Origin: Liolophura sinensis
Taxonomy: Eukaryota > Mollusca > Polyplacophora > Chitonida > Chitonidae
Reading direction: 5' to 3'
DNA: 64,000 bases
Assembly (NCBI RefSeq): GCF_032854445.1
Contig: NC_088302.1
Coordinates: 37,762,191-37,826,190 of the forward strand
This document shows, one piece after another, positions 4,958 through 46,539 of the stretch; position 1 is the first letter of the stretch, and each line of letters opens with the position of its first letter. The notes under the pieces were generated by a model. That model had not been told where the DNA came from, did no database searches, and saw only the letters and a program-made list of their open reading frames with translations. The position numbers and the translations under genes were made by a program.

Positions 4958-5690
4958 ATCTAGCCACTGTATTACAGAACCGATAAGGGTTGGTATCTCC
5001 ATCTAGCTCTTGTAATATATATTTATTTGATTGGTGGTTTGTACCGTACTCAAGAATATTTCACTTATACGGCGGCGGCCAGCATTATCGTGGGAGAAAA
5101 CCGGGCAGAGCCCAGTAGAAACCGACGACCATACGCAGGTTTCGGGCAGACCTTCCCGCATACGGCTATTGTAATACAGAACCTATAAGTGTTGAAATCT
5201 CTGTCTGGCCACTGTAATAGAGAATCTATGAGGGTTGGTATCTCTATCTAGTTATATTAATGCAAAACCGATAAGGGATGGTATCTCTGTCTGTTCCCAT
5301 GAAACACAAAACCAATTAGGCCCACAAAAGATTGGAACTATTGTTGTACAAACCCTATGGCTACGGCTGTGTTAGTGAGGGGCCAATGTTTTACAGGACT
5401 GATAAGGGTTCATTCTGTATGACCAGTGTGGTGACCAATAGCGTACAAAACTGATGAGGGTTGGTACGTGTTTCTGTGTGACTAATATAGAACAAAACTG
5501 ATGAGGGTTGGTACGTGATTCTGTGTGACTAATGTAGTGCAAACCGATGAGGGTTGGCAGGTGTTCCTGTGTGAGTAATGTAGTACAAAACTGATGAGGG
5601 TTGGCACGTGTTCCTGTGTGAGTAATGTAGTACAAAACTGATGAGGGCTGGCACGTGATTCTGTGTGACTAATGTAGTGCATAACTAATG
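4958..5690. repeat. Degenerate minisatellite, ~45-48 bp units
   Basis: Diverged tandem units share the core ACCGATAAGGGTTGGTATCT or ACTGATGAGGGTTGGTACGT. On the left (4958-5330) they are poorly conserved and a SINE fragment interrupts them. From about 5397 they become more regular 47-48 bp units carrying a TAATGTAGTACAAA-like segment. This block runs directly into the 33-bp array on its right and shares its core, so the two look like one array at different stages of change. Confidence 0.8.
5018..5166 (-). mobile_element. Partial tRNA-derived SINE (family 1) inside the minisatellite
   Basis: The reverse complement of the family-1 SINE 3' half: T-rich tail, then GTACTCAAGAATATTTCACTT, then the conserved body. 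It sits within the degenerate minisatellite. TTGTAATA occurs on both sides and is a likely target-site duplication, so the insertion post-dates that part of the array. Confidence 0.75.
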
Positions 5691-7325
5691 AGAGGTGGTG
5701 TATTTGTATGACCAAAGCTAATGAGAGGTGGTGTCTCTGTGTGACCGAAACTAATGAGAGGTGGTGTAGCTGTGTGATCAAAGCTAATGAGAGGTGGTGT
5801 CTATGTGTGGCCAAAGTTAATGAGAGGTGATGTGTCTGTGTGACAAAAGCTAATGAGATGTGATGTATCTGTGTGACCGAAACTAATGAGAGTTGGTGTC
5901 TCTGTGTGATCAAAGCTAATGAGAGGTGATGTATCTGTATGACCGAAACTAATGAGAGGTGGTGTATATGTGTGACCAAAACTAATGAGAGGTGGTGTAT
6001 CTGTGTGACCAAAACTAATGAGAGGTGGTGTATCTGTATGACCGAAACTAATGAGAGGTGGTGTATCTGTGTGGCCAAAGCTAATGAGAGTTGGTGTCTC
6101 TGTGTGATCAAAGCTAATGAGAGGTGATGTATCTGTGTGACCAAAGCTAATGAGAGGTGATGTATCTGTGTGACCGAAACTAATGAGAGGTGGTGTATCT
6201 GTGTGATCAAAGCTAATGAGAGGTGGTGTCTATGTGTGGCCAAAGTTAATGAGAGGTGATGTATCTGTGTGACAAAAGCTAATGAGAGGTGGTGTCTCTG
6301 TGTGACCAAAACTAATGAGAGGTGGTGTCTCTGTGTGATCAAAGCTAATGAAAGGTGGTGTCTCTGTGTGGCCAAAACTAATGAGGGGTGGTGTCTATGT
6401 GTGGCCACAACTAATGAGAGGTGATGTTTCTGTGTGACCATAGCTAATGAGAGGTGGTGTATCTGTATGACCAAAACTAATGAGAGGTGGTGTATCTGTG
6501 TGATCAAAGCTAATGAGTGGTGGCGTCTATGTGTGGCCAAAGCTAATGAGAGGTGGTGAATCTATGTGACCAAAGTTAATGAGAGGTGATGTATCTGTGT
6601 GACCAAAACTAATGAGTGGTGTATCTGTGTGATCAAAACTAATGAGAGGTAGTGTCTCTGGATGACCATAGCCAATGAGAGGTGGTGTATCTGTGTGAAT
6701 ATTGCCAATGAGAGGTGGTGCATCTGTGTGACCATGGCCAGTGAGAGGTGGTGTATCTGTGTGACCAACACATAGTTTGAGGTAATGTATCTGTGTGACC
6801 AAAACTAATGAGAGGTGGTGTGTCTGTGTGACCAAAACTAATGAGAGGTGGTGTCTCTGGATGACAATAGCCAATGAGAGGTGGTGTATCTGTGTGACCA
6901 TAGCTAATGAGAGGTGGTGTATCTGTGTGACCATAGCCAGTGAGAGGTGGTGTATCTGTGTGACCATAGCCAATGAGAGGTGGTGTGTCTGTGTGACCAA
7001 CACACAGTTTGAGGTAATGTATCTGTGTGACCAAACCTAATGAGAGGTGGTGTCTCTGGATGACCAAAACTAATGAGAGGTGGTGTATCTGTGAGACCAA
7101 AGCTAATGAGAGGTGGTGTATCTGTGTGACCAACACATAGTTTGAGGTAATGTATCTGTGTGACCAAAGTTAATGTGAGGTGATGCGTCTGTGTGACCAG
7201 TCAATGGGAGCTGTTGTATCTGTGTGGCCAAAACTAATGAGAGGTGGTGTATCTGTGTGGCCAAAACTAATGAGAGGTGGTGTATCTGTATGACCAAAGC
7301 TAATGAGAGGTGGTGTCTCACTGTG
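5690..7325. repeat. 33-bp minisatellite, about 1.6 kb
   Basis: Near-continuous tandem repeats of a 33-bp unit with core CTAATGAGAGGTGGTGTATC, then TGTGTGACCAAA; by length about 49 copies. Because 33 is a multiple of three, long open frames appear on both strands (an 11-residue repeat such as LALVTQIHHLS on the minus strand). A distinct variant with CACATAGTTTGAGG recurs near 6769, 6999 and 7131, about seven and four units apart, showing higher-order duplication. I read this as non-coding. Confidence 0.95.
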
Positions 7326-7933
7326 AGCAAACGCAGATGTATCCATTTAGACTGTGTTATCATACACTTAGGCTACACTGTTGGTTTTGGAGAACATATA
7401 TTAATAAGATATATAGGGCCTTGTATTTAAAAGTAGTTTTAATGAACAGTGATTAAAATCAATTTGACAGGAATCTGTTTATATTTGACTGCTATTGAAT
7501 GAATATATTGTCGACAAATAAAGGGGAGCTAACACCAAAAACTGTTCATAATTATTGCTGTGAACAGGTGGCCTCCCTTGATCCTAGTGCGGCTGTATTA
7601 ACTATTAATACTGCATTACTGCAGAAATGAATCGTAAAAGGAAAAGAATCACAAGTCAATGTTCAATTGGTTTCTGCAGAAAATATTTTAGTTCTCCTAA
7701 AATATATATAAAATATATGTGAGACACAGACGTCTCATCTTAGTTTTCCCATGCAACCATTACACGTAGGCATATGCATAGAGAATGTATGCAATTCCTA
7801 CATTCATGAGAAGATGTGGGCCTATATGCCTGAATTCACGAAAGATTACAAAATGCTACCAGTGTTTCTGTCAGGCATATAGACCTATGCTAAAAGCATA
7901 TATAGTCATATATAGCATATTTAAGTGGTTATT

Positions 7934-11310: not shown

Positions 11311-11508
11311 TAAGGTATCTGGATGGCAGGTGTTGCAATGTCTTACAGACAGACGGTTTGTAGGTTAACATCTGTCAGACATAGAAGTCGACCGCCTAAC
11401 CGGCTAAATGTGCCGCCCACGTCTGTGATTGGCTCAGTTGCCTGCTGGCCTTTGACCTGCACTGAGTCCTTCACCTTTACTTGCTACATCCCAAACGTGT
11501 GTGTCAAA

Positions 11509-14167
11509 ATGGCGGAGGGAAGCGACAACAACACGGGCAGTGACGGTGTTTTATCGTCTCTTATGAAGGAGATCTTTACTAGCCCTCTTAACATTGGACT
11601 GTTAGCAATATGTGCATATTTGCTCTACAAAATCATAGCCGGTAGAAGAGCAAAACCCCCACCAGTACCTGTTCAACCTCAACTTCCGCGCATGAAGAAA
11701 AGAGATTTCACTCTGGAACAGCTACGGGAGTATGATGGGAAAGGGAAAGACGGTCGTCTTTTGATCGCTGTCAATAACAAAGTGTTCGATGTGACGAGAG
11801 GCAAGAGATTTTACGGGCCAGGTATGATGATGTACTTAGGATTTTCGAATCAATCTCTGCGAAGTTTGTCGACAGATGCGAAGCAGTGCTATGCAAACAT
11901 CTGCAACAAAATGCAGACATAGCTCATCTTTCTTTAGGTTTACATCATTATTATGACAGTGGAACACGCATATACAGAATCTGATGATCATGCAGCATGG
12001 TTATTCGCCTAGAAACTGAACCCTGGGTCACAGTGAACTTGTGTCGTACTGTGTGAATGTAAATATTTTAATCATGACGAGATAAATACGCCCTTCAATA
12101 AGTTCACCGTGACCTGTTTAATCCGAGATCGACACAGTTAAGCGTACCCAGGCAGTAGGCCAAGTCTGTTATAGCCTTAAACCAATCTAAAAGTAGCACG
12201 TGTACTTCTGTGACACAGAAATTACATTCAGTATTGCAGGTTTATGTACTTTCGTGATTGATCAACAGACAATGTAGTGTTAAACAATATTGTTCATATA
12301 TATACCATTATTAAAAATTGAAGTGAGTGCAACAGCTGCATTCATGTGGTGCCAGTGTGTCATGCAGACCTAGTACTGTGTAAATCGTTTAATAATGGAA
12401 AGATTTTATGAAACAAACCTGGTATGGTGATATGCCACAATGCGTCAGTATCAGGTTAAATTTTTTTTGTTACTATGACAGTATTACTTTTGTTTGATGA
12501 AATCTTGTGTACACATTGTCACATATTGTGACGCATTGTCATCATGCATGCACAGAAGCTTGCGTGAACTGCCCGTTTATGTCAGGTTTGTTTGGTAGCT
12601 GGAGGCACACTGTGGTTCATCATAGTTTTCTTCACTCAATTTTTGCTCTTTCGGTCATCTGAGGCAATAAATATTCTTTAGTGTCATGTACAACACAAAT
12701 CAATTGGTCAGGCAATGGGGCCCAGCTGTAATACACATTGGAATAGAATACATAGTGGTTTTATTATCGGTATTATGAATCACATTAACATTAGAGAACA
12801 TACTGTAAGTATAACTGGTGATAGAAATGTTCATTTAGATTTTGCAGACACTCAGACAGAAAGTAGTGACAAAGAATGGTACATCTCTTGTTGAGTTCTT
12901 TAGAATTTAGCCAGTGGTAAGATATAGTGGCTTAGATTCCAGTTATGATTCACATTAGGTGTGGTAATCAGTGGCCACCCTGGGCTGTTGCAAGATGTGA
13001 CCTATTGTTGTTGATCATGCCTTCAGTTTCAAGTTTTAACTGGATGATGTAGTTCAATTTATTTGAATGAAGTAGATATGTATACATGTGTAGCTACCTG
13101 CATCTGTATATTGAATTACACTGAAAATGAGACCCTAAGCTCTGCATGGAACATCAGATTGAGAGTTCTCCTCCTCTGCATTATTTAGTCTTAATTAAGA
13201 AAATGGAGTTGATGCATTTGTAAACTGTTAAAGATATGATATATCCCGTCTGTATTTGTGTATGTTTTCTGTTTTCAGGTGGGCCGTATGGAGTGTTCGC
13301 AGGGAGAGACGCCTCCAGGGGACTGGCCACATTCTCTCTCAGTGAAGAAGCCATCAAGGATGAATTTGATGATTTAAGTGACCTGAACACGATGCAGATG
13401 GAAAGTGTTCGAGAATGGGAGATGCAGTTCTTAGGTATATTTATATGAGAACGGGCCCATTATTAATGCAGATTCTTATGTTATATTGGAGTCAGTCTGT
13501 CAACCCATCTAGTTTTTATCTGTTTTCATATTGTAGACTTGACAGAAAGATTATTCTGCCTGAAGATAACATAAATGTCAAATTACTCAAGTTGCTCTTT
13601 GTTAAACATCGCCGCAGTACGGCTGAGAGATTGCCAGGGTGGTGTTAGGCTGTAATCATTCATTCTTTCTTGTTAAACACTGTGATCATTGGGACCATGT
13701 AATTTTCCAAAGAGAGGACATATTGTATACCTGCTGCAAAGGGTGGAGGGGGGGGACTTGTCACTCTCTCTTTATCTCTTGATGAGAGCTGACATTGTAC
13801 AAGTGCACTCTCACCCCCACCACACACACACAGCTCCTTCAAAAGTTGGCTGGAATAGGGCGGTTTGTATCATTTCCACATTCACTAACAAACCACCATC
13901 ATGCAAATTTCAGCAGAATAGAATGTATGAAACATTGTAAAACTCAAGCATTACAGATTTTGTATTCATAAACATTATATTTTGTGTCAATTTACAGAAA
14001 AGTATGAATACATTGGTAAGCTTCTGCGTCCTGGAGAACAGCCTGCGGACTATACAGATACTGAGGATGAACAGGGCGATGATAAAAAAAGACACTGCTA
14101 CAGAAAAGAAGTCACAGTGATAAAGGTGGCAATGTCTCATGCTAAATCAAGTCTTCTATCTCTATAA
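11509..14167 (+). CDS. PGRMC1: Membrane-associated progesterone receptor component 1 (PGRMC1-like)
   Basis: Three coding exons: 11509-11821, 13279-13434 and 13998-14167, all with GT/AG borders and phase-1 junctions. The product is about 212 residues (human is 195). Residues 21-28 (EIFTSPLN) and a membrane segment at about 27-45 precede a proline-rich linker. The cytochrome-b5-like domain follows, with the family signature RFYGPGGPYGVFAGRDASRG. Tyr102 and Tyr108 correspond to the conserved haem-pocket tyrosines. The family binds haem in ER and other membranes and acts with cytochromes P450 and in sterol handling. The start was chosen by matching the vertebrate N-terminal length and for its A at -3 and G at +4. 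The frame stays open upstream to an ATG at 11323. The last ~16 residues are unlike the family, and a donor-like AAG/GTGGCA near 14126 leaves the true C-terminus uncertain. Confidence 0.94.
13279..13434 (+). CDS. PGRMC1: PGRMC1 exon 2 (core of haem-binding domain)
   Basis: The acceptor is TGTTTTCAG and the donor TTAG/GTATAT. It encodes GPYGVFAGRDASRGLATF, then SLSEEAIKDEFDDLSDL, near-identical to the cytochrome-b5-like domain of animal PGRMC proteins. It carries the second conserved tyrosine. 156 nt, phase 1 at both ends. Confidence 0.95.
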
Positions 14168-33200: not shown

Positions 33201-36200
33201 CATAGCTGTACTGATCACATACTGTGAGTGAATATCTCCCATGGTCTTTATACATGGTCATGATGATATAGGGCTTTTCTTTACAATTTATCTCATCATG
33301 AGTGTTTCATGCCAGGCTCAATAATATTTTAGTTTACAATATGTTTAGTGATCGTACCTGGTAATACTGGAATAGGTATTCTGCCTGTCTTGGTCAGCAG
33401 TGAAAATTTGTCACCTGTTACCTTCGTTTTCAGGGGAGCCTACAAATACCATAGCAATTTGGCTGTAATTAATATACTGACCACAAAACACATGGTGAAT
33501 ACATACAATCAGAGAAATGGTGTGAAACTGGAAAGATCCAATGACATCTAGCTATTATCTGCAAAGCAAGATTAAAATAAATCTACATATCAACTCATTT
33601 TCACATACTTGCATTAATACTTTGATGCTAAGGGTTTTCAGTCTGTCTGTGCCCTACTCAAGAATACTTCATTTTCTCAAAAACATTTTACTGAACAGTT
33701 CTTGGGAACTGATTCCTCGGTTGATTTTTGATCCTCGCTGATTCATCCAAAAGTTCATACACTAATAAATTTGTATTAACATAACACAAAACACTTTTCA
33801 TGTCGACAAAATATTTTTTCATGTTTCAAATTTTGTTTTTATGAAATTGAAACTTTCTTTTGCACATAACTGCCTGTGCATTTCATAAAACAGGAATCAT
33901 AGTCACACAACATCATACCATGGATTGTTATTTCAAGCATTAAAATGTCTTTTTCCTTCCTCACTTACCCCTCTCTCTTCCCAGTCTGGGAACAGCTCTG
34001 ACATAGCCCGGGGCTCTATACATGCTCCTGATAGAGTGTGACCACCTGTGGGCAGAAAGTAATGACAACTGTTCACAATAGCCTATCTACCTGAGAGAGA
34101 GGAGTACAATGTATGAAAGACTTTACAGTTTAGACAGTTAATTTTTCAACACTGAGAACCAGCTCTTTGTCCAGACCAATGTGGTATAGTAGCCTACTTC
34201 ACAATAACATTACACTCAGATATTATATGCTATAAACATGAATGCTTGAACAGCATGCTAACGATGATGTACGGGCTCTTGCTGACTCGTTTGGTTGAGA
34301 TGTTGTTCTTGCTGTAACTGACGGGCCCCTAAGCAATGAGGCCGCAGGCTAATACGACAGACAAGCAAATAAATTTCCTCCTTAATAAATACAGTATATC
34401 ACCTTTTTCACCCTGCTATAATAAGCTGGCGAAAAATCATGTGAAGTTAGATGTGATTTATTGTTTATCACATACAATTTCATGTGATTTTTCACCTACT
34501 TAGTATAGTAGACCCAATATTTTAATAAATTTAACAGAAAATTTCACCCTCCTAAACGCTGGACATGGCAATTATAATAAGGTGAAAAATTTGATAAAAT
34601 TATAACTTATTTGCTGTATATGTAAATGAAGAGATATTATTTGCATGATAGAAGCAAAGATCAATTGTTTTCAACAAAAATGCAACTAGCTTTGTTGACA
34701 AACATGTTAACATCATAGGCACAGCACAAAGGTAATATCCAACATTCGTATTTTCTTCATGTACAGTACATGTTTGCTATTATTTATGCACCTCAATCTA
34801 TATAGGAATAAAGGGATTAGTGGGCTCCGTTGTCCTACTAAATAAACCTCACCTATTTCTGAAGCCTTCTCCACCAGGCATACTCTGAGTTCTCGGCTTT
34901 GTTCATTGGCTAACTGTTTGAGTCGACAGGCAGCTGACAGTCCAGCTGGTCCACCTCCCACGATTACAACGTCTGCCTCATCGCCATACCTCTCCATATC
35001 CACATCTGTCAAACAACAACAACAACAGCAATGGAGACACACATATACATGTAGGATGCTTACATGCTGTACAATGTTGAAATCACACAAGATTGGCTAC
35101 ACAGTATAAAAATATTTCCAATATAAAGAATTTAACAGTTTGGGCGTTTATTTGAAAAAAAAAATGACAAAATGGAACCATAAATAATTGGTACACAAAT
35201 ACATGAAGATAACAGTGCATGTATTTACAATTCATACATGTATTACATATATATTTATTTATTTGATTGGTGTTTTACGCCGTATTCAAGAATATTTCAC
35301 TCGTATAGAGGTGGCCAGCATTACAGCGGGAGGAAACCGAGCAGAGCCCAGGGGAAATCCACCACCGTCCACCATCTGCAGACTGCTGACAGACCTTTCC
35401 ATGCATGGCCGGGGAGGAAGCCAGCATGAGTTGGACCTGAACTCACAGACTGCATTTCTGAAAAGCTCCTGGGTCATTTCGCCATGCTGGCGTGCTAAAC
35501 CCCTCCGCCGCAAAGGCCCCTCATTACATACACATGTATAGTTCTAGTTACATGTACGTGTAAGTCCATAACATGACATAACAGATTTATAGTAACATAT
35601 AAAGGTACCTTTCCTATTCATCGGGGCCAGTCAAGCATGAAATAAAAATTATTTAACCTTCAAAGAGGACATACACAACAATTACCAAACCAGCAAATAG
35701 ACTTATATACAAACACAGCTATACACTGACCTTTCCAGCGAGGGTCGCTCTCCCTGGGAAATACTGTGTAATGTGTTGTTATTTTGGGAAGAGAAGATTC
35801 CGATCTGTAAAACTGTCTGAGCAAGTTGACATAGCATCTTGCTGTAAGAGAACATAATTTAATTTATTAAAATTTAATAAATTGGTGTTTTACGCCGTAC
35901 TCAGGAATATTTCACTTATATGACGGCAGCCAGCATTATGTTCGGAGGAATCCAGGCAAAGCCCAGGGAAAACCCATGACCATCTGCAGGTTGCTGGCAG
36001 ACCTTCCCACATAAGGCTGAGGAGGAAGTCAGCATGAGCTGGATTTGAACTCACAGTGACCGCATTGGTGAGAGGCTCCTGGGATCATTAGCGCACTAAC
36101 CAACTGAGGAAAATAATTTAATCCATTCAAACTAAAGAGAATTATATACATGTAACTTAACTGACTTCATACTCTGAGACTAGGTCAAGTTAAAAAAAGT

Positions 36201-37343
36201 TTCCAGTAAAAGCAAACACATGAAACGAGTCATGTTACAAACAACATTTTATCAGCCCCAACAATTTTATAATTATTGTGTTGCAATTCCATTCAATTTT
36301 GATAACCTCTAAACTTCATAAACTTAGCACCAAAGAACAGCTCTAATAAGGCAAAGATACTTAATTCAATTTGTGACTCACATATGAGCAAACTATGACC
36401 TACTTTCATATCCAAATGAAAGAGATCAAAGTCCACTTATACATAGTTTATATTTCCAGCAAATATTTATGCACCGGTTAGAACTAGTAGAGTATGAAAT
36501 AACTGCCCTACCTCTGACAGTAGACAGAGCTGCTGATACAAAACAGAGGCAGTTCAAACCAGACTGACAAGGATTTACCTACATACCAATTTTTCATCCC
36601 CCATCATCATATAATTTGCAGCCCATTTAACACATGTGCATCTATGGTAATTTTCACATACATGTAGCCCTGTCATTGTTTTGTGGTTATATTTCATAAA
36701 GAATCCCATACTGATCTGCCTACATAAATATGAGAGCTAATATCATTATTAAATTCAACCATATATCATTCTGAATGTGCTTTCTTACATGTACTATTAA
36801 AAACATATTTAGTTGGTATAAAATTCTATAACCCCGTGGCGTAATTTGGTGGAAATTGCCATGAATTCATTTTTGAAGCTGATTATGAAACCTACATTTC
36901 TAACTTCAATGTTTTCACACACCAGTAGCGTAGTAAAATACAGGTACAGTACGCAGTCTACCTATGACTAGCTGGTACATAATCAAACTGCTCAGATTAG
37001 AGTAAAACTGAATCATTTCTAGGTCTTCAAACTAAAATTGGGGTAATAATGATCCCTAGAATGATACTGAGTATGTGTTAGTCTTTCGTAATTGCCTCTA
37101 GACTGTTTGATAACACTGACCACTGCCAACACGTCGTAAATGTCAACTTGACCGTCTTGATATCAATTTTATACAAGCTTTAGTACAGTAATCTCAGACG
37201 CTGCTTTGAGCAGGAAGAACGGAATGCCTTTCATATTTAATCACGATTATATAAGGGTACACAGGATAGTAATGAACAACATCTACTTTAGAGAACGGCT
37301 TCTTACCATTCTTCAATGTCAACCTCTTCGATAGTAACGCCAT
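24061..37343 (-). CDS. ETFDH: Electron transfer flavoprotein-ubiquinone oxidoreductase (ETF-QO), mitochondrial
   Basis: A complete gene with 14 coding exons. In gene order: 37343-37307, 35841-35731, 35005-34853, 34045-33969, 33439-33358, 33061-32943, 32328-32251, 31841-31629, 30419-30345, 27036-26893, 26491-26317, 25754-25572, 25129-24908, 24224-24061. They total 1833 nt, 610 residues plus stop (human 617), and every junction keeps frame. The enzyme passes electrons from ETF through FAD and a 4Fe-4S cluster to ubiquinone in the inner mitochondrial membrane. Residues 1-35 are basic and hydroxylated, fitting a mitochondrial presequence. The FAD dinucleotide motif GGGPAG is at 66-71. Cluster ligands Cys554, 579, 582 and 585 match human 561, 586, 589 and 592. 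The C-terminus GPAYNGM is family-typical. The start is the first in-frame ATG (G at -3 and +4). No lesion was seen. Confidence 0.97.
24580..24725 (-). mobile_element. Partial second-family SINE in ETFDH intron 13
   Basis: TTTTTCAGTCATATGACAAC, then the CCTTGTTGCAGGACGG body, matches the copy near 41310 more closely than the one at 8732. The tRNA-like head is missing. It lies between ETFDH exons 13 and 14. Confidence 0.6.
25928..26010 (-). mobile_element. Degenerate SINE tail in ETFDH intron 11
   Basis: ATTTATTTGTTTGATTGGAG, then a TCTTGTGCCATACTGAAGAG-like stretch and TATTTCATTT, follow the order of the family-1 tail in reverse complement. Strongly diverged. Confidence 0.5.
27895..27951. repeat. 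Tandem duplication of ~29 bp in an ETFDH intron
   Basis: Two adjacent copies of a segment reading roughly GTAAGGACACATAAAATACA then TGTACAAATAT, with one or two differences. Intron 9 of ETFDH. Confidence 0.8.
28415..28769. mobile_element. Long inverted-repeat (MITE-like) element in ETFDH intron 9
   Basis: About 105 bp at 28415-28520 is repeated in inverted orientation at about 28659-28769, separated by about 140 bp. Shared blocks in order are ACGCA-GTTTCGAG, CGAC-ACAGA-TGACGTC, CAC-TTA-G-CAC-GTAGGGC and TTTTAA-ATGG. The arms are diverged but co-linear. No coding capacity. Confidence 0.6.
31441..31558 (-). mobile_element. Partial family-1 SINE in ETFDH intron 8
   Basis: The reverse-complemented tail (ATTTATTTCATTGGTGTTTT, ACGCCGT) is followed by the conserved ATATTTGACTTATACGACGG and GGTGGGAGGAAA. 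The tRNA-related half is missing. Confidence 0.75.
31629..31841 (-). CDS. ETFDH: ETFDH exon 8
   Basis: 213 nt, phase 0 at both ends. Encodes [20 protein letters not shown] and onward to VEHTVGWPF, a highly conserved central block of ETF-QO between the FAD and ubiquinone-binding parts. Acceptor TTTCTAAG, donor TTT/GTGAGT. Confidence 0.95.
34853..35005 (-). CDS. ETFDH: ETFDH exon 3 (FAD-binding motif)
   Basis: Encodes [20 protein letters not shown] and onward to VEKASEIG, the N-terminal Rossmann beta-alpha-beta fold that binds FAD, with the downstream acidic residue in VCLVEKA. The acceptor is TTTGACAG and the donor ATAG/GTGAGG. Confidence 0.96.
35253..35522 (-). mobile_element. Near full-length family-1 SINE in ETFDH intron 2
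   Basis: Complete from the tail (ATTTATTTATTTGATTGGTG) to the 5' end (GGGGCCTTTGCGG on the minus strand). ATTACATA flanks both sides as a probable short target-site duplication. Confidence 0.85.
35868..36110 (-). mobile_element. Family-1 SINE in ETFDH intron 1
   Basis: Reverse complement of the SINE from AATTGGTGTTTTACGCCGTA to the CCTCAGTTGGTTAGTGCGC-like tRNA end. ATAATTTAAT occurs on both sides and may be the target-site duplication. Confidence 0.85.
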
Positions 37344-37548: not shown

Positions 37549-37620
37549 ATGGCGGTAAATTTTGAACTGTTGCACAGTGAAAGACGGTTCCGATTGAACT
37601 TGGAAAGCATTATCCGAAAG
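37549..37620 (+). CDS. HJURP-like exon 1 (Scm3 helix)
   Basis: Encodes MAVNFELLHSERRFRLNLES then IIRK and ends at AAG/GTAAGG in phase 0. Together with exon 2 it forms the predicted amphipathic helix and the KYNRPF motif diagnostic of the Scm3 family. Confidence 0.72.
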
Positions 37621-40600
37621 GTAAGGATTGTACGGTTTCTAATATGAGAACAAAAGGTAGAAAAATATTTAGAAATTTCGAAGTCAGGAATGTTTATTAT
37701 GAAGCCATTGTTGTTGTTGCATTCAGCTTAAACTGTCAGACGGGAGCCTATGTGGCTCAGTTGGTCAGCGCGCTAGCGCAGCGTGAGTCTCTCACCAGTA
37801 CGGTCGCTGTGAGTTCAAGTCCAGCTCATGCTGGCTTCCTCTCGGCCGCACGTGGGAAGGTCATCCAGCAACCTGCGGATGGTCGTGGGTTTCAACCGGG
37901 GTGTGCCCGGTTTCCTCCCACCATAATGCTGGCCGCCGCCGTCGTATAAGTGAAATATTCTTGAGTACGGCGTAAAACACCAATCAAATAAATAAATAAA
38001 TAAACTAAAGACATCCATACAACACTGATTGGACCAACAAATTGGAGACTTGCTTTTACATTGTGTCAGTTATCAAAACTGGGAGCATTTAACATATTTC
38101 TTCCGGACTCACATTGCAGATGGTAATATCCAATATTTCTGGGTTCCACAATCCTAGTTGTCATCGGGGCCCAGTTGTTCGAATGTGTATTATGTAATAC
38201 TGGTATTAAGTACGTTTAAGATTTTAACCCAGTTCTGCATCCAATATATTTGTCCAAAGTCAGAGTATAAAAGCAGCAGATTTAGTTCATATGTAATATA
38301 CTGATACACAATTACTTTGGGCTAAGTACAAAATTGAAGACTTGACTTAAATCTGGTATTAAGACTTGAAACAGTTTTGAACAACTGGGCCCAGGGCTGA
38401 GTGTATGTACTTAAACTTATTGTGTAAACCATGAAGTCTTCAATGATAGACAGCTCTGTATGCCCACATGTACTGTTGGATTTATATATCATAATCCTCT
38501 GCAGCAACCTGTGGATGGTCGTGGGTTTCCCCCGGGCCCTGCCCGGTTTCCTCCCACCATAATGTTGGTCGCCATTGTATAAGTGAAATATTCTTGAGTA
38601 CAGCGTAAAACACTATTCAAATGAATGAATAAATGTATATCGTAAGTCATGTGAAAGTTATTTAGTTTACAGTCTGTACACTACAGGCATTTTTCTTTAT
38701 GTCAGGCATATGATTAAGGTACATACAACAAGCTTAAGTTTTAACACCACATTATCCTAAATGTTCATCTATGCCACAATGTGAAATGCCATGTGCATCC
38801 AATTAGAGGGATTTGAGAATTGGGTCCTTTGGGGATGTATCACGAGGGCTTTTAGTCTTCAACTGTGACATCAAGGAAGGGCTCTGGACACTTGTCTTGA
38901 AAGTTGTACTTCTGTTTATTAACTGTATGTTTTACTCTCTAGAGTGAAGTCTGGAAAAAGTTTATATATTGGATATAACAGTATTTAACAGTCATGTCCA
39001 AAGTTGGCATGGTTGCCATAGCTAATTCCAGCATAGACTGAACATGTTTGAACTAGATGAGAAACAGTTAACAACATAACAAAAATCTGCATTAAAATTC
39101 TGACTAAAAGATTAACATTGATATAACACATTGATGTATGTAGGCAATTCCAATTCTATCACCAACGTAACAGACGCACATAGGTTGACTATAATGATAC
39201 ATAACAAATAGTAACCAGTGCAAGTCACCTGGTCATAGATGGCGTATAGTTTGGTCAGTGTTAATTGGCCTGAAAGTAACTCTGGCTACTGGTAATTCTG
39301 AAAAGGATGTTGCATATATAGATTAGGATACATTTTGGGAACGTTATGATCTCAAATCTATAAAAGTGATAACTGTAGTGTTTGACTGGTCAGGAGGGTT
39401 TTCTTTTTATGTTATTCTGCATATACACCGACATGAAATTTCACCACTGCTCTCCATGCACACACTTACCAAACTGCTGAGTAGTGGCCCTTGATAAATT
39501 TACAGAACAATTAGACATTGTGTCCATGCAGACTGGTCATCATGTCAGACTTGAGTATAAATTTGTTGGCAAGTTTAATTGGTGGATTCTGGTAAATACC
39601 AACCTTGCTGTGCACAGTTTCTCAGCTCACCATGACCTTTAGTGGTGGTCAACTATCAAGTTGTGCTATTATACTGTTTTTGTGGTCAGGCTTGGCAGTG
39701 TTGTTCTTGCATCTTCAATTAACATTGTTGTTTTTGTTTCTACAAGTGAAACAAATAATTATATTGTTTCAAATACTCCAAGGAGTATATGCCTAATACC
39801 AATGTTTTTGTATGAGGGGACGTCAGCAATATGCTTTTACTTGTTAAAGGTAAGAGCTAGCTGCAATAATCTGAACATGGCTTGAGATTTAGATGTTATC
39901 TTTCTGTCCTGGTGTGTTTTCGAAGATACACAAGGAATACATAAGTTTTGTGATGTGGGTCATTATCTAAGAAGTTATAATGTTTCTCTATTTTGTTACA
40001 GTACAATAGACCTTTTCATGATGATGATGAATTAGACCTTTCAAATTTTGAAGTTGTCTCGGATAATGGTAAGTCAGGAACTCATCTATCTTATCTAAGC
40101 AATGGCAATAGTCTATACACATGTAGATATGATTGTTGGCTCCAGTTGAGTGTGTAGGATACTGCTTGTCTTGTATAATCTTTATTTTTTTTTTTTTTTT
40201 GATTTAGAAATTAACTATAAATGTTCTGTATTACAGTAAAAATAAGTAATAATTTCTAGGTCTCTCACTGGCTGTGATTTTCCTTGACCAATGAAATTTC
40301 ATGTTCAAATCCAGCTCTCCCTGGTTTAACATATATAAGTCGGGAGGTTTGTCCGTTATCTTGCAAAGGGCAGTGGCTTATTCGAAACACTCCTTTTGCT
40401 TTCAACATGACCCATTAGTCTCACCATAGTAGTATATTAAAAGTAAAGTTCTTGATTATGACCTAAATGCCAGTGAATTTATTTGTTTATTTGATTGGTG
40501 TTATACACTTTACTTAAAAACATTAAAATGAACACCCAAGTAGCTATAAAAGTGAATGTGCAATTCAGTGGAGAGAAATTACTATTGGAACTGTTTTAAT

Positions 40601-43600
40601 GTCTTAACTAATTGATAAAGCTGTTCTTCTCATTTTCAGGAAAGCTTGAACACATTGAGCCACGATACTTTGGGGCCTCTAGATTGCAAATCACAAAACG
40701 AAGAGGTAACTTATGGCTTACAGTTTGTAGTGTCCTAAATTATGATTGTACAGATTTGATACTTTTGACTCACTTTACAGTGATATACAAGAAAGTACAT
40801 GTTTCAAACTTTCACCAGGCATATTAAAAAGGTAACAGGTGTATCAAACTTTCAATTGCTGCTCAAGAATACTTTGAACCACATTCCCCAAAAGTATGTG
40901 TGTCAAACTTTCAGTAGCCACTCAAAGAAAACATGCTCAGTTGGGTAGTGCGCTAGCGCAGCGTAATGACCTAGGAGTCTCTCACCAATGCGGCCACTGT
41001 GAGTTCAAGTCCAGCTCATGCTGGCTTCCTCTCCAGCCGTATGTGGGAAGGTCTTGCAGCAATCTGCGGATGGTCGTGGGTTTCCCCCGGGCTGTGCCTG
41101 GTGAAATATTCTTGAATATGGCGTAAAACACCAATCAAATAAATAAACAAATCAAAGAAAACTTTGAAGTGCATTTCCCCAAAAGTTAATATATCAAACT
41201 TTCAGAAGCTACACAAGAAAACTTTGAACCACATTTCCAAGAGGTACATTTGTCATACCTTCACCAAATGGATATAAGTGAGGGAGTGCTTAGGGTTTAA
41301 CATCGTACTTAATAATTTTTCAGTCATATGACAACGAAGGAGTCCTCAGTGTGCATGTAGGAGTAATGTGCCTCCTTGTTGCAGAACAGATTTCCAAGGC
41401 TCTTTTATCTAGTGCTGCTTCACTGAGACAACTTACCGAAGGAAAGTAAGCTGCCCCGCCCGAGCCATTATACTGAAACAGTCGTTGCACTATCCCCTTA
41501 AAGCTGAACGCCAAGAGAGGAAGCTATAACTTCTTCGTTTAAAGTCTTAGGCGTGACCTGACCTAGAATTAAGCCTGGATCTTCTGCTCCTGAAGTGCTC
41601 TCTTCCAACTGTGCTATCAACCCCGATAGATGGATAAGAAAATACATGTACATGTATTCCAACATCACCAGATGTATAGTCTTGAAATTGGAAGTATATG
41701 TATAAGAAAACTCCCCTGACTAGGACTTTGGAAAATTCTTGAGTATGCCATTAACGTGCAATAAGAACCTGTTTAGATGGATAATATTTTGAAATGAAAA
41801 TACACTCAAAGCAAATTTTAAGGGTTCTGCATTCACGTAGAACAATAATACCATTTAACTTTATGAGTATTTTCTTGGAGGTGTTTGTGAGGGTGAAATA
41901 TGTAGCATTTCTGTTGTAGTGCACTCAGAGCTATTTCATTAGAAAAGTTTACAGGTAGCAAGCCTGATTAATTAAATTTACGTGAATCTCATTTTTGTAT
42001 ATCAGATCGGTCAAGTGATTCAGCATACGGAACTGCTTCTTCTGCCTCTGCTTGTGATGGGGATGATGATCAGCTGTCAAGGGTAACTGTCGCATCAAAA
42101 ATGATTCTCCCTCTCACAGTGTCAAAGCCATCTGCAGCATCTGATCACTTTAAGCAGAAACCATGAGTTAAAAGTGTAGCTGATAGTCTGTTGGTGATGA
42201 TGTTTGTGGGATTTTCATTTGTATTGTCTGGTTTGAGGTTAGATGTCAAGTATACATTCAGAGATCAATATTATAATTAAATGTTCTTTAGCAGTCTGGG
42301 ACCAATGGAGCTATATATCCAGTTCTCATTACCTGCCTTTTGAAATGGCATGATCTTGGTTATAACACCGTGAGATTATGAGATCAGTTACAAAACCTTG
42401 ATTGACAAAATGTTTGTGAATGTGAACTGTGATTACTAAATTAATTTGTAAGAAAACGTGTTGAAAAAAAAAAAAAAAAAATTCCTGACCATGAAAGATT
42501 CCGTCCATTTTTTCCTTTTTGCTTTCTGTCATTCATTATGAAGTATGTATCAGCAAATCAGCATATTACACAGATCTGACATTAAGATTCAGTCAAGTGC
42601 AGAGTTTGAGACTTTCCATGATCTCATTCTAGCAGGACCAGTATGTGTCCTACAACAACCAGAGTGTGCGCAGTACCCTGGAGGATGAGTCCTGGATGAT
42701 CAGGTACACAGCTTCTGAGAAGTCTGCAAACATCACAGCTATTGAAGGTTAGTTCCCTCTTGGTACAACTTATAGATCCTGAAACTTTTTATGTGTAGAG
42801 AAGATGTTTCTTTTGTTCTGCTCTGAGACTACTGCTCTTTCTATATTACAAAAATGACCTTAGTTCATCTTTTTTCTCCACTATATGGCTTATATGCTTC
42901 CATTGTGGCATTAACCACATCTTTCATTCTTTCTGCATTATTTTGGTCAGATCACAACATTGCAATAGTTCTGAATTTTGAGCGAAAATAATGTAGAATG
43001 TGATGTTAGGAGTTAGGAGGTGCGGGTTAAAGCCTGTTCCTGGGCACAAAATTTATATGTTGGCCCACTGTCGTTGTTTGGGGGGGGGGGGGGGGGGGAG
43101 CATTAATAACAATATGCACACAAGAATACTTGAACGGCTGTTTGCTGAGTCAATCATTCGTTGAAGACCAGTTGCCTTCCAACAATAAGGTGTGCCTATT
43201 ATAATGTGTACCGGTACCATGCATGTGGGAAAGTCTTGTCAGTTACTTGCCAAAGTCAGTGGTCTACCCTGGAGTAGGTTTCATTGGGCATACTTCATGC
43301 TAAGTATCCCTTAACCTAGAGCACGTCATATCTCTACAACACATGCTGTCATGGTATTCAAGGGCTTTCCTAGGTAAGTACATTTCATGAAACTGTGTCC
43401 TGAACACTCTGTTTTCCTCCATCCCATGCAACTGACTGCCATTGTAAACTGAATTAAATAGAGTCTTGCTTATGGTGTAAATCTACAATCAAGTAAATTA
43501 AACTCATCAATAGATTAATTCAGAAACTCACTAATGCATTCGTTTTCAGAGATCAGAGAGGCTGTGGCAAAGGAAAGTGCAGAAGAGGATGTAGATGAAA

Positions 43601-46539
43601 CGAGTGATGCAGACACCATTACTGAAGACTCCAGTTACTTTTCCAGTGGTTCAGAGAGTGATGTGGCCTGTAATGACGAGATCGAGGAAAGTGACGGCAA
43701 TGATGCTGATCTGGACACAGAAGAGGACCCCAAAGACACAATGAGCAAACGAACTACCGAGAAGAGCAGGTCTTATGACGCCGACATTGACACTGACTCT
43801 ACTGCCACGTCACAAATGCCCCCGTCTTCTGCAAGGGCTAATCCAAAAACCAACCCACTTCTAGAGCTCCTGTTCAAAGGAGGAAAAGTAACCCAGAATA
43901 ACGGTTCTCCTTCAAATGCTTGTCAGGCGGCACTAAAAGCTGTTGGGAAACATTCTCTTGACTTTACTGGGGTGAAATTAAAACCTGTCCAAGGAAACAA
44001 TGACGTGGTTATTCCAAGCTCACCAGAGAGTGAAGAAGATGAAATTATTACTCTAGATTATGATAGTGGCAGACCCTCAGATTGCCCTTTAAACACAACG
44101 TATGTTGTTAAAGCAGGACAAGACCCTGCTCAGCAGCAGCCTGCCCATGACAGTGACAGAGTTGTTAGCGGTGTGAATTGTAGAAAGGTAAACCTTAAGG
44201 AGGAACCATCGACAGGGGAGAGTCGAAAGAGTGTGGACAATGGTCATGATACAACTCTGATTCAGCTTGGTAACATAACGTTTGATCCCGTCTTCAATTC
44301 CACCAGGAATGACATGGACCCCTCCACTATCATAACGTCTACGCACACATCCGGACACCATGGCCTATTTTTTCAGAAGTCTGCTGTAACAAATTCCGGG
44401 AGGAGGCTGGTTTCTCCGCTTAGTAGAAGTAAAGCTACACCAAAGACTAGCTCGTCCAGTGGAACCCAATCCAAATGCCACCCACCCAAAAGTAAATCAG
44501 TTAATGTAGATCTGTTTATGTCGAAGACCAGTTTTTCTAGCGAGAAGTTGGAAGAGATTGTACCGATTAAAGAAAACATGGTTGAAGACAAAACGGCTGA
44601 CATTCAGTCTGTTGCTAAACAACAGAATTCACAGACTGGTCAACAACACTTGGAACAACTTCACATTATCAAGCGAGCCTCCAATACAAGCCTAGACTAT
44701 ACCGTCCTAAGGTCTTCGGAGAACTCTGTTGCATCATCAGGCAGTCCAGCATCATTTCTGACAAGCAAAAGTAATCAGTCTAAAGTGAAGGAGACTGGAG
44801 CACGATGGATGGAAAACAGCCCTCGTGACCTTGTGACATCAGCAACTCATGAATCACGGTCAGCTGTCTTAAAGACACCAGATCTTCTTAAATTTAAAAA
44901 GCTTAGTCTAAATTCAAAAAATGGCCCAGTGTCCTCTCTTACATATAACCATTCGGTTGATAATACCAGTGAAAGGTCCATCTCTCACAGTTCTGAAACG
45001 GTCTGCACGGATATTCAGAAACAGTTTGATAACCTCTTCTATCAAAGCAGGCCTCCTGACGAAATTGCTGCTTTACTGTCTCCTATGCCCATCATTGTGG
45101 CGAGAAAGGGGGGCCTCATGACTCCCATTCACAGAAAAGATGCATCTCCCGCTACTGTTCTGTCGCATTTGAAAAACGTGTACTTAAAGTCTCCTCTTGA
45201 GACTGGAAAGACCGCCGGTAAGTTTTCTCATCCCACTGAGATGCAAAGCAAGAGTCAGTCCGGGGTGTCAAGAAGGTTAGGGCAAAAAGAGGTAGAATTT
45301 AGCAGTGATACAGTTCATGATGCTACTAAGGCACGGCTTCAAGTCCGTTCCGCATTACCGAAGCTTGTCACCCATACCAGCAGAGGTTTGAGAGATCACA
45401 GCTGTATCTCTGATTTGACGCCCAGTTTGACCCCACCCAAAAAGTCTCCTGTAAGTAACTCCATGGGGTTAACAAAACGCGCTACCAGCACACCACGTGG
45501 GAAGCACCTGAAGAACTCCACCTTTGACTGTGGTATATCTACCATTGAAGTAAATGACGCTCAGAATTACAAAGAACAGCAGATTCCTTCAAATCCCATG
45601 GAATGCCTTCAAATAAACTGTCTAAGAAGTCCTGTCAGCAGTTTGAATAAACAAGCTAAAAACAAAAATGAGCACGATTCCTGTACAGTCCTCAAGAAGC
45701 GCTGTTCTTCTCCGCAGCCAAGACGAAGAAAAGAACGAATTTGGGGTCCGGAGAAAGATGAATACCATGCAGAGATTCGACCTTTAAAGAAAAGAGAGCC
45801 AGACGACGACATTGAAGGTTTTGACTTCAGGCAGTTATCGAATGTTCGTCTTTCCTCTGAAAATCACGACACGAAGGAAAAACGTCTGAAGTTGAAGGAA
45901 AAGGGAGTTCCTAGACGCGAGAAATCTTCCGTCTCGCAAGCGACAATGTACAGTCCAGATGACTCACCACAAACAACGAATGGCATGACCTCCCCTCGTA
46001 AAGTTTCGGTCCGTAAGAAAATCCACAAGAAAAATGAAATCGATCGTATATACGAATTGAATTCTGACGAATCGGATGATATGTCTTGTCGACCATTATC
46101 CGGAAACAGTGGAATGACGTTTTCTGATGATTCAGAAGGTAGTAGTGCATCGTCTCACAGCTCGCCTGAAAACTCTTTCGAACGGCGTATAAAGAAGTTA
46201 CGCTCTCGCAACCGAGAAAGCGTTCCGGCCAGAAAAAGCTTAGCGGGAGCTTTCCGTGTTGTTATTTCAAGCAGCGGAAGCGGTTACAATACGGAGCTGA
46301 AAACAAAACGACCTGCCGTCAAAATAAAGCAATCGCCAGTATCCTCCAAGCGACGTTTATCATCAGAGGATGAAGATTCTGAATTCTCGGACTTGAATCC
46401 AGTTCCTAAAAAGCAACGCAGTGTGAGAAAGATGTACCGTGCCACATCAAACAATAACTCGCCTAATACAACCGTAGGATGCGGCGGTCCTGGGAAATGT
46501 AAAAAGTTCTTCTGTTTTGATTGTAGTGATATTTCGTGA
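37549..46539 (+). CDS. HJURP/Scm3-like CENP-A chaperone (putative)
   Basis: Six coding exons: 37549-37620, 40002-40068, 40640-40705, 42006-42082, 42636-42747 and 43550-46539. They total 3384 nt, 1127 residues plus stop, and all junctions keep frame. Residues 11-29 (RRFRLNLESIIRKYNRPF) followed by an acidic stretch and GxxxxxPRYFGASRLQITKR resemble the vertebrate HJURP/Scm3 N-terminus (RRMQ-L-EKYN-PFED, then R-WGGRLIKER), which binds CENP-A/H4. Residues 619-626 (DIQKQFDN) recall the HJURP C-terminal repeat (EIKEEFDKLH). The rest is low-complexity, rich in Ser, Lys, Asp/Glu and SP/TP sites, as in nuclear cell-cycle proteins. The last residues contain CGGPGKCKKFFCFDC, which I cannot place. Human HJURP is 748 residues. 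The start has A at -3 and G at +4; an in-frame ATG at 37342 could add 69 residues. The assignment rests on short motifs. Confidence 0.72.
37741..38005 (+). mobile_element. Full-length family-1 SINE in HJURP-like intron 1
   Basis: It begins GGGAGCCTATGTGGCTCAGT (A-box-like), has GAGTTCAAGTCC (B-box-like), and ends with an AATAAATAAATAAATAAA tail. The 5' half has a small deletion relative to the 63040 copy. Confidence 0.9.
38167..38392. mobile_element. MITE with GGGCCCAGTTGTTC termini
   Basis: Terminal inverted repeats of 17 bp with one mismatch (GGGCCCAGTTGTTCGAA at 38167-38183; complement at 38376-38392) bound a 226-bp non-coding element. Subterminal segments are partly complementary too. 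It lies in HJURP-like intron 1. Confidence 0.75.
38499..38635 (+). mobile_element. Partial family-1 SINE in HJURP-like intron 1
   Basis: The 3' half only, from GCAGCAACCTGTGGATGGTC to GAATGAATAAATG. The tRNA-related head is missing. Confidence 0.8.
40002..40068 (+). CDS. HJURP-like exon 2
   Basis: Encodes YNRPFHDDDELDLSNFEVVS then DN. The YN-PF plus acidic pattern aligns with vertebrate HJURP after the helix. Acceptor TTTTGTTACAG, donor AATG/GTAAGT. Confidence 0.72.
40800..41275. repeat. ~59-bp tandem repeat in HJURP-like intron 3, split by a SINE
   Basis: Units start TCAAACTTTCA and contain ACTTTGAACCACATT and CCCCAAAAGT. Starts fall at 40804, 40844, 40903, 41194 and 41253. The large 40903-41194 gap drops to 61 bp once the SINE and one duplicated target site are removed. 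Confidence 0.8.
40933..41151 (+). mobile_element. Internally deleted family-1 SINE inserted in the 59-bp repeat
   Basis: It has the tRNA-like head and the GTGAAATATTCTTGAATATG tail but lacks about 40 bp between them. 11-bp direct repeats TCAAAGAAAAC lie at 40922-40932 and 41152-41162. Confidence 0.88.
41290..41625 (-). mobile_element. Second-family SINE variant in HJURP-like intron 3
   Basis: It has the shared 3' segment (TTTTTCAGTCATATGACAAC) and body. Its minus-strand 5' end reads GGGGTTGATAGCACAGTTGG then AAGAGAGC, a tRNA-like A box different from the head at 8732-9014. Confidence 0.6.
43080..43098 (+). repeat. Poly(G) tract of 19 in HJURP-like intron 5
   Basis: Nineteen consecutive Gs on the coding strand. 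The run could form G-quadruplex structures in DNA or pre-mRNA, and its length is likely to vary between individuals and assemblies. Confidence 0.95.
43550..46539 (+). CDS. HJURP-like exon 6 (large terminal exon)
   Basis: A single 2990-nt exon entered by CGTTTTCAG. It codes for about 88% of the protein: an acidic start (AEEDVDETSDADTITEDSSY), a long Ser/Lys-rich disordered region, the FDNL motif near 45010, basic clusters such as PRRRKERIW, and the Cys-rich tail. Antisense and out-of-frame open frames inside it are shadows. Confidence 0.8.

Follow-up and report, generated by a model that had tools for sequence, protein, structure and literature searches.

A six-exon gene on the forward strand of the window (the whole stretch of chiton DNA analysed here, 64,000 nucleotides long) is predicted to encode the chiton Scm3/HJURP, a CENP-A chaperone. 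Judging from the sequence, we put the probability of this reading at roughly 0.94. A first-pass annotation had proposed that this place encodes a lophotrochozoan CENP-A chaperone of the Scm3/HJURP type, and the proposal is borne out by the test that it had named, a match to the Scm3 profile. The chiton gene is one more member of a described Scm3/HJURP group, snail, annelid, and flatworm copies of which had been reported shortly before.

The gene spans positions 37549 to 46539. It has six exons, as the annotation had proposed; they are separated by introns that all begin with GT and end with AG, their phases agree, and together they join into an open reading frame of 1,127 codons followed by a stop codon. 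The gene model is a prediction from genomic sequence. The exons, all on the forward strand, are as follows.

37549-37620, forward strand: exon 1, residues 1 to 24, with the start of the scm3 helix; its final residue is the K of the KY motif, and it ends at a GTAAGG donor in phase 0.
40002-40068, forward strand: exon 2, with the Y of KY, NRPF and an acidic stretch, and the remaining scm3 core; AG and GT sites, phase 1.
40640-40705, forward strand: exon 3, with the end of the scm3 region and RYFGASRLQITKR.
42006-42082, forward strand: exon 4, a linker rich in S and D, with agreeing phases; it gives one of the six genome matches to residues 1 to 160.
42636-42747, forward strand: exon 5, DQYVSYNNQSV...WMIRYTASEKS, with no family match.
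43550-46539, forward strand: exon 6, the long serine-rich C-terminal region with the stop codon, within an open frame at 43519-46539.

The intron after K24 splits the KY pair, and HSERRFRLNLESIIRK, YNRPFHDDDELDL, and RYFGASRLQITKR were all found as the annotation had described them. Serine accounts for 14.9% of the whole 1,127-residue protein, and the C-terminal region encoded by exon 6 is probably largely disordered. The likeliest start codon, itself predicted, is the ATG at 37549, which has an A at -3 and a G at +4. Upstream of it the reading frame is open to 37276, and two in-frame ATGs at 37342 and 37348 compete with it; use of these upstream codons would move the scm3 match by 69 or 67 residues.

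Several other features were observed in the window. An interspersed repeat is present in eight copies, including those at 37809, 40999, 54483, and 63117 (31-base probe, at most 3 mismatches, 0 copies expected by chance), and the HJURP gene carries two of the eight, in its introns 1 and 3; we take this repeat to resemble the tRNA-derived SINEs of molluscs. A minisatellite at 5685-7331 consists of approximately 50 copies of a 33-base unit, and is crossed by open frames as long as 359 codons. On the reverse strand, 34716-35096 is an exon of an FAD-dependent oxidoreductase, presumably ETFDH-like, that is transcribed away from the HJURP gene. On the forward strand, 11314-11919 is an exon with a cytochrome-b5-like domain (22.9 bits, just below the cut-off of 23.7), which we assume to be PGRMC-like.

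The family assignment is carried by the N-terminus of the protein. We searched the translation against 24,736 Pfam models with a limit of E 10, and Scm3 (PF10384, a model of 53 positions) was the sole family listed for the whole protein, matching residues 10 to 52 with 35.2 bits against a cut-off of 24.3 (E 9.6e-9). When residues 1 to 77 were searched alone, the same family matched residues 9 to 52 with 40.6 bits (E 2.1e-10). A phmmer search of PDB sequences returned four sequences at E<=10, the top one being HJURP of 3r45, which matched residues 7 to 39 weakly (E 0.014); the next had an E of 0.46. The 3R45 entry is the crystal structure of the human HJURP-CENP-A-H4 complex, as given in the available part of PMC13322267.

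We also aligned the chiton protein locally with the scm3 region of human HJURP and obtained a score of 69, which none of 2,000 shuffles reached (best 59). The alignment follows the pattern ...RRF......I.KYN.PF.D..., and the KY motif is found at K24-Y25 within NRPFHDDDELDL, aligned with KYNQPFED of human HJURP and followed by an acidic and hydrophobic stretch. By eye, RYFGASRLQI of exon 3 sits opposite RIWGGRLI of human HJURP, outside the local alignment. Two further searches gave no match. PF10384 had no hit in the six-frame translation of the genome, because the domain is cut into three short exons, whereas the spliced protein matches; 14 control genomes likewise gave no match, so this null is uninformative. 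Residues 1 to 160 had no match in NCBIfam, as expected of a library of prokaryote proteins.

The conserved part amounts to about 45 of 1,127 residues, and the rest of the protein has no family match, so one could suppose that the N-terminal helix resembles scm3 by chance or through convergence and that the protein is some other serine-rich nuclear protein. We consider this very improbable given the strength of the Scm3 match for the whole protein against the full set of models, the presence of KY and of the exons in the right order, the failure of every shuffle to reach the score of the human alignment, and the fact that this genome also contains exons of CENP-A-type, Mis18, and SANTA-domain genes (below). 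A second alternative is that the gene, though a true scm3 homolog, has decayed into a pseudogene or is not expressed, the gene model having been built from genomic sequence. Against this stand six exons with agreeing phases, which keep approximately 3.4 kb of coding sequence open, and the finding of no second genome copy that could carry the function. The copy count comes from a search of the genome (609,464,459 bases in 632 contigs, with the window on contig C8) with residues 1 to 160, which gave six matches from six candidates scored, all at this locus and one per exon; short or diverged exons of a second HJURP copy could escape such a search. We regard loss of function as highly unlikely, and a functional chiton Scm3/HJURP as the reading to be preferred.

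The layout of the protein agrees with that of known animal relatives. An N-terminal scm3 domain followed by a long polar rest is the animal HJURP layout described in the available text of PMC13322267 (1 July 2026), and the chiton protein likewise has its scm3 match near the N-terminus (residues 10 to 52 of 1,127), the KY motif, and a long polar rest. We found a single copy in the chiton, as in most of the deuterostome genomes of that study, as far as its available part goes. The same source reports that Scm3/HJURP orthologs are kept in most of the animal lineages investigated, with candidates from Biomphalaria glabrata (KAI8798300.1, HMMer E 3.9e-15), C. teleta (ELT94853.1), Schistosoma japonicum, and Priapulus caudatus, and it includes functional work on zebrafish and C. 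elegans. By its argument, CAL1 too is an HJURP ortholog, though a highly diverged one. Like the chiton protein, Drosophila CAL1 belongs with the CENP-A chaperones, and it has an scm3-like fold (PMC13322267, available part); however, the chiton protein retains KY and matches the curated Scm3 family, whereas the KY constraint is reported there to be lost in flies.

These reports alter the setting in which the annotation had placed the gene. It had called CAL1 unrelated, which is at odds with its placement in PMC13322267 as a highly diverged ortholog, and its description of invertebrate HJURP-type proteins as poorly described has been overtaken by the orthologs given there for most animal lineages investigated. 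It had further expected a lophotrochozoan copy to help date the replacement of Scm3/HJURP. Given orthologs in most lineages, among them the snail, annelid, and flatworm candidates, and CAL1 as a diverged ortholog, such a copy can no longer serve to date that replacement. A literature search for HJURP in molluscs found no chiton HJURP among the titles listed, and a word search of the available main text of PMC13322267 found no mention of molluscs, lophotrochozoans, annelids, oysters, bivalves, spiralians, gastropods, flatworms, Capitella, Lottia, Crassostrea, Octopus, or introns.

The chiton protein differs from vertebrate-type HJURP in that it has no HJURP_mid or HJURP_C match. The annotation had pointed to an HJURP_C-like FDNL motif in the last exon.

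45025-45036, forward strand: FDNL, residues 624 to 627; proposed HJURP_C-like motif, not supported.

The word is present at residue 624, as noted, and its identity as an HJURP_C-like motif did not hold up. Neither HJURP_C nor HJURP_mid was listed for the whole protein or for the FDNL segment (limit E 10, with filters that drop most matches above approximately 0.1). Nor is the word rare by chance: among 5,000 composition shuffles, exact FDNL occurred in 0.8%, FD[KQN]L in 2.0%, and FD.L in 13.9%. We therefore dropped the motif. According to the available part of PMC13322267, the homology that tetrapods share with teleosts in the Mis18-binding R2 region does not extend to echinoderms; therefore, it is not expected in a mollusc.

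The C-terminus of the protein carries a cluster of cysteines.

46480-46524, forward strand: cysteine cluster CGGPGKCKKFFCFDC, residues 1109 to 1123; candidate zinc site.

Four of the 18 cysteines of the protein fall in this cluster, in the pattern C-x5-C-x4-C-x2-C and inside the final 19 residues. A looser pattern covering CGGPGKCKKFFCFDC occurred in 0.1% of 5,000 shuffles, a frequency that must be weighed against the choice of the pattern with the cluster already in view. Searched alone, the last 39 residues gave 17.9 bits with Pfam C1_4 (E 0.0037), below the cut-off of 28.9, and this family was unlisted for the whole protein. The same 39 residues had no match in PDB at E<=10, and their single match in the genome was their own locus.

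Fungal Scm3 (S. cerevisiae, K. lactis, and S. pombe) has the scm3 domain (PF10384) in common with the chiton protein, and it has a cysteine-rich domain as well. In S. pombe Scm3, this domain is C-terminal and binds zinc. To go by the title of a 2024 paper by Folco and colleagues, the cysteine-rich domain of Scm3 reportedly ensures centromere targeting. The chiton cluster may correspond to the fungal domain, with homology at the level of a candidate; by analogy with S. pombe Scm3, a zinc-binding targeting role for CGGPGKCKKFFCFDC would be a guess. Within the animal HJURP group, the cluster was noted in the chiton protein.

Genes for likely partners of the chaperone are present in the same genome. 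We read the following places, two of them on contig C1.

C13:16859601-16869500: CENP-A-type gene, histone-fold exons open.
C1:77488501-77498400: CENP-A-type gene, histone-fold exons open.
C1:31335814-31335945, reverse strand: Mis18 exon, from PDB matches and PF03226.
C6:3160148-3160716, reverse strand: SANTA domain of M18BP1/KNL2 type, in two collinear exons.

The CENP-A-type genes were found with the human CENP-A histone fold as query, which gave 33 genome matches from 37 candidates scored. Twenty-four of the 33 scored at least 96.8 bits and were taken for H3 from their near-equal scores. Eight of the remaining nine places were read, through seven loci, and C3:22528851 was left out. Two of the eight are the last exons of CENP-A-type genes, one on C13 and one on C1; upstream histone-fold exons adjoin both, and the intron positions are identical in the two genes. 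Compared over the histone fold, leaving N-terminal tails and starts aside, both genes have a loop 1 that is two residues longer than that of H3, W in place of the H3 F, LVH in place of LVG, and S or A in place of the Q of PFQRL. Human CENP-A likewise has the longer loop 1, the W, the H, and the S. The two genes are 72.3% identical to each other over 94 aligned residues, and their identities to H3 (70.3 and 73.9%) exceed their identity to human CENP-A (65.5% each). For each gene, the best 60 of 176 PDB matches were mostly H3. Overall score and identity thus do not separate the two genes from H3, so we call them CENP-A-type by their diagnostic residues.

The Mis18 exon matched the PDB entries "Kinetochore protein mis18" (E 4.8e-8) and "Protein Mis18-alpha" (E 4.8e-4) and gave 40.1 bits with PF03226. 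A second Yippee-Mis18 match, on C6, is by the features of its sequence probably a Yippee protein and not Mis18. The SANTA domain gave no genome match at E<=0.001; at E<=10 its two exons scored 26.5 and 20 bits singly, and joined they scored 62.3 bits against a cut-off of 21 (E 6.3e-17). For the CENP-C C-terminal family, the genome gave 0 matches at E<=0.001 and 3 at E<=10, none of them reaching the cut-off, a result that is uninformative: among 14 control genomes, 4 at E<=0.001 and 8 at E<=10 gave matches, all below the cut-off, and those control genomes that are named are prokaryotes. The family searches of the chiton genome were run without an animal control genome.

The finding of one chaperone gene beside two CENP-A-type genes may be a new side result, as may the C-terminal cysteine cluster. 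No report of two CENP-A genes in a mollusc was found in the literature among the titles listed. In the available part of an annelid study, cenh3 is one of the histone variant genes named as present in single copy in three species (PMC12153100); for Gnathifera, a loss of CenH3 is reported (PMC12460157, available part).

We envisage the following mechanism. The scm3 helix, the KY motif, and the next strand would bind CENP-A and H4 as a dimer before deposition, by way of loop 1 and helix 2 of CENP-A; we infer this binding from the solved human and yeast complexes, to which the chiton protein is connected by homology in sequence. The long serine-rich C-terminal part would then bring the CENP-A/H4 complex to centromeres, where the Mis18-M18BP1 machinery would license loading. 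Recruitment by Mis18-M18BP1 is plausible, with exons of those genes present in the genome. The C-terminal cysteine cluster may also take part in centromere targeting.

A broader conjecture combines these elements. The chiton would keep an ancestral opisthokont layout resembling fungal Scm3, with an N-terminal scm3 domain and a C-terminal zinc-binding targeting domain that was lost from vertebrate HJURP, and its single chaperone would serve two CENP-A paralogs with different loop-1 sequences. We hold this conjecture tentatively and think it rather unlikely. If it is true, a single scm3 domain has to recognise two distinct targeting domains, or else it favours one of them.

The analysis yields a clear HJURP of a chiton (Polyplacophora), taken from a genome assembled nearly to chromosome level, together with its complete exon map and exons of its likely partners. 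An ordinary profile search is enough to show that this mollusc kept an scm3 chaperone. Mosquitoes reportedly co-retain paralogs of both Cid and Cal1, according to the title of a paper, whereas only one chaperone gene was found in the chiton. If this one chaperone uses both CENP-A proteins, the chiton would offer a natural test of how the specificity of HJURP follows a duplication of CENP-A.
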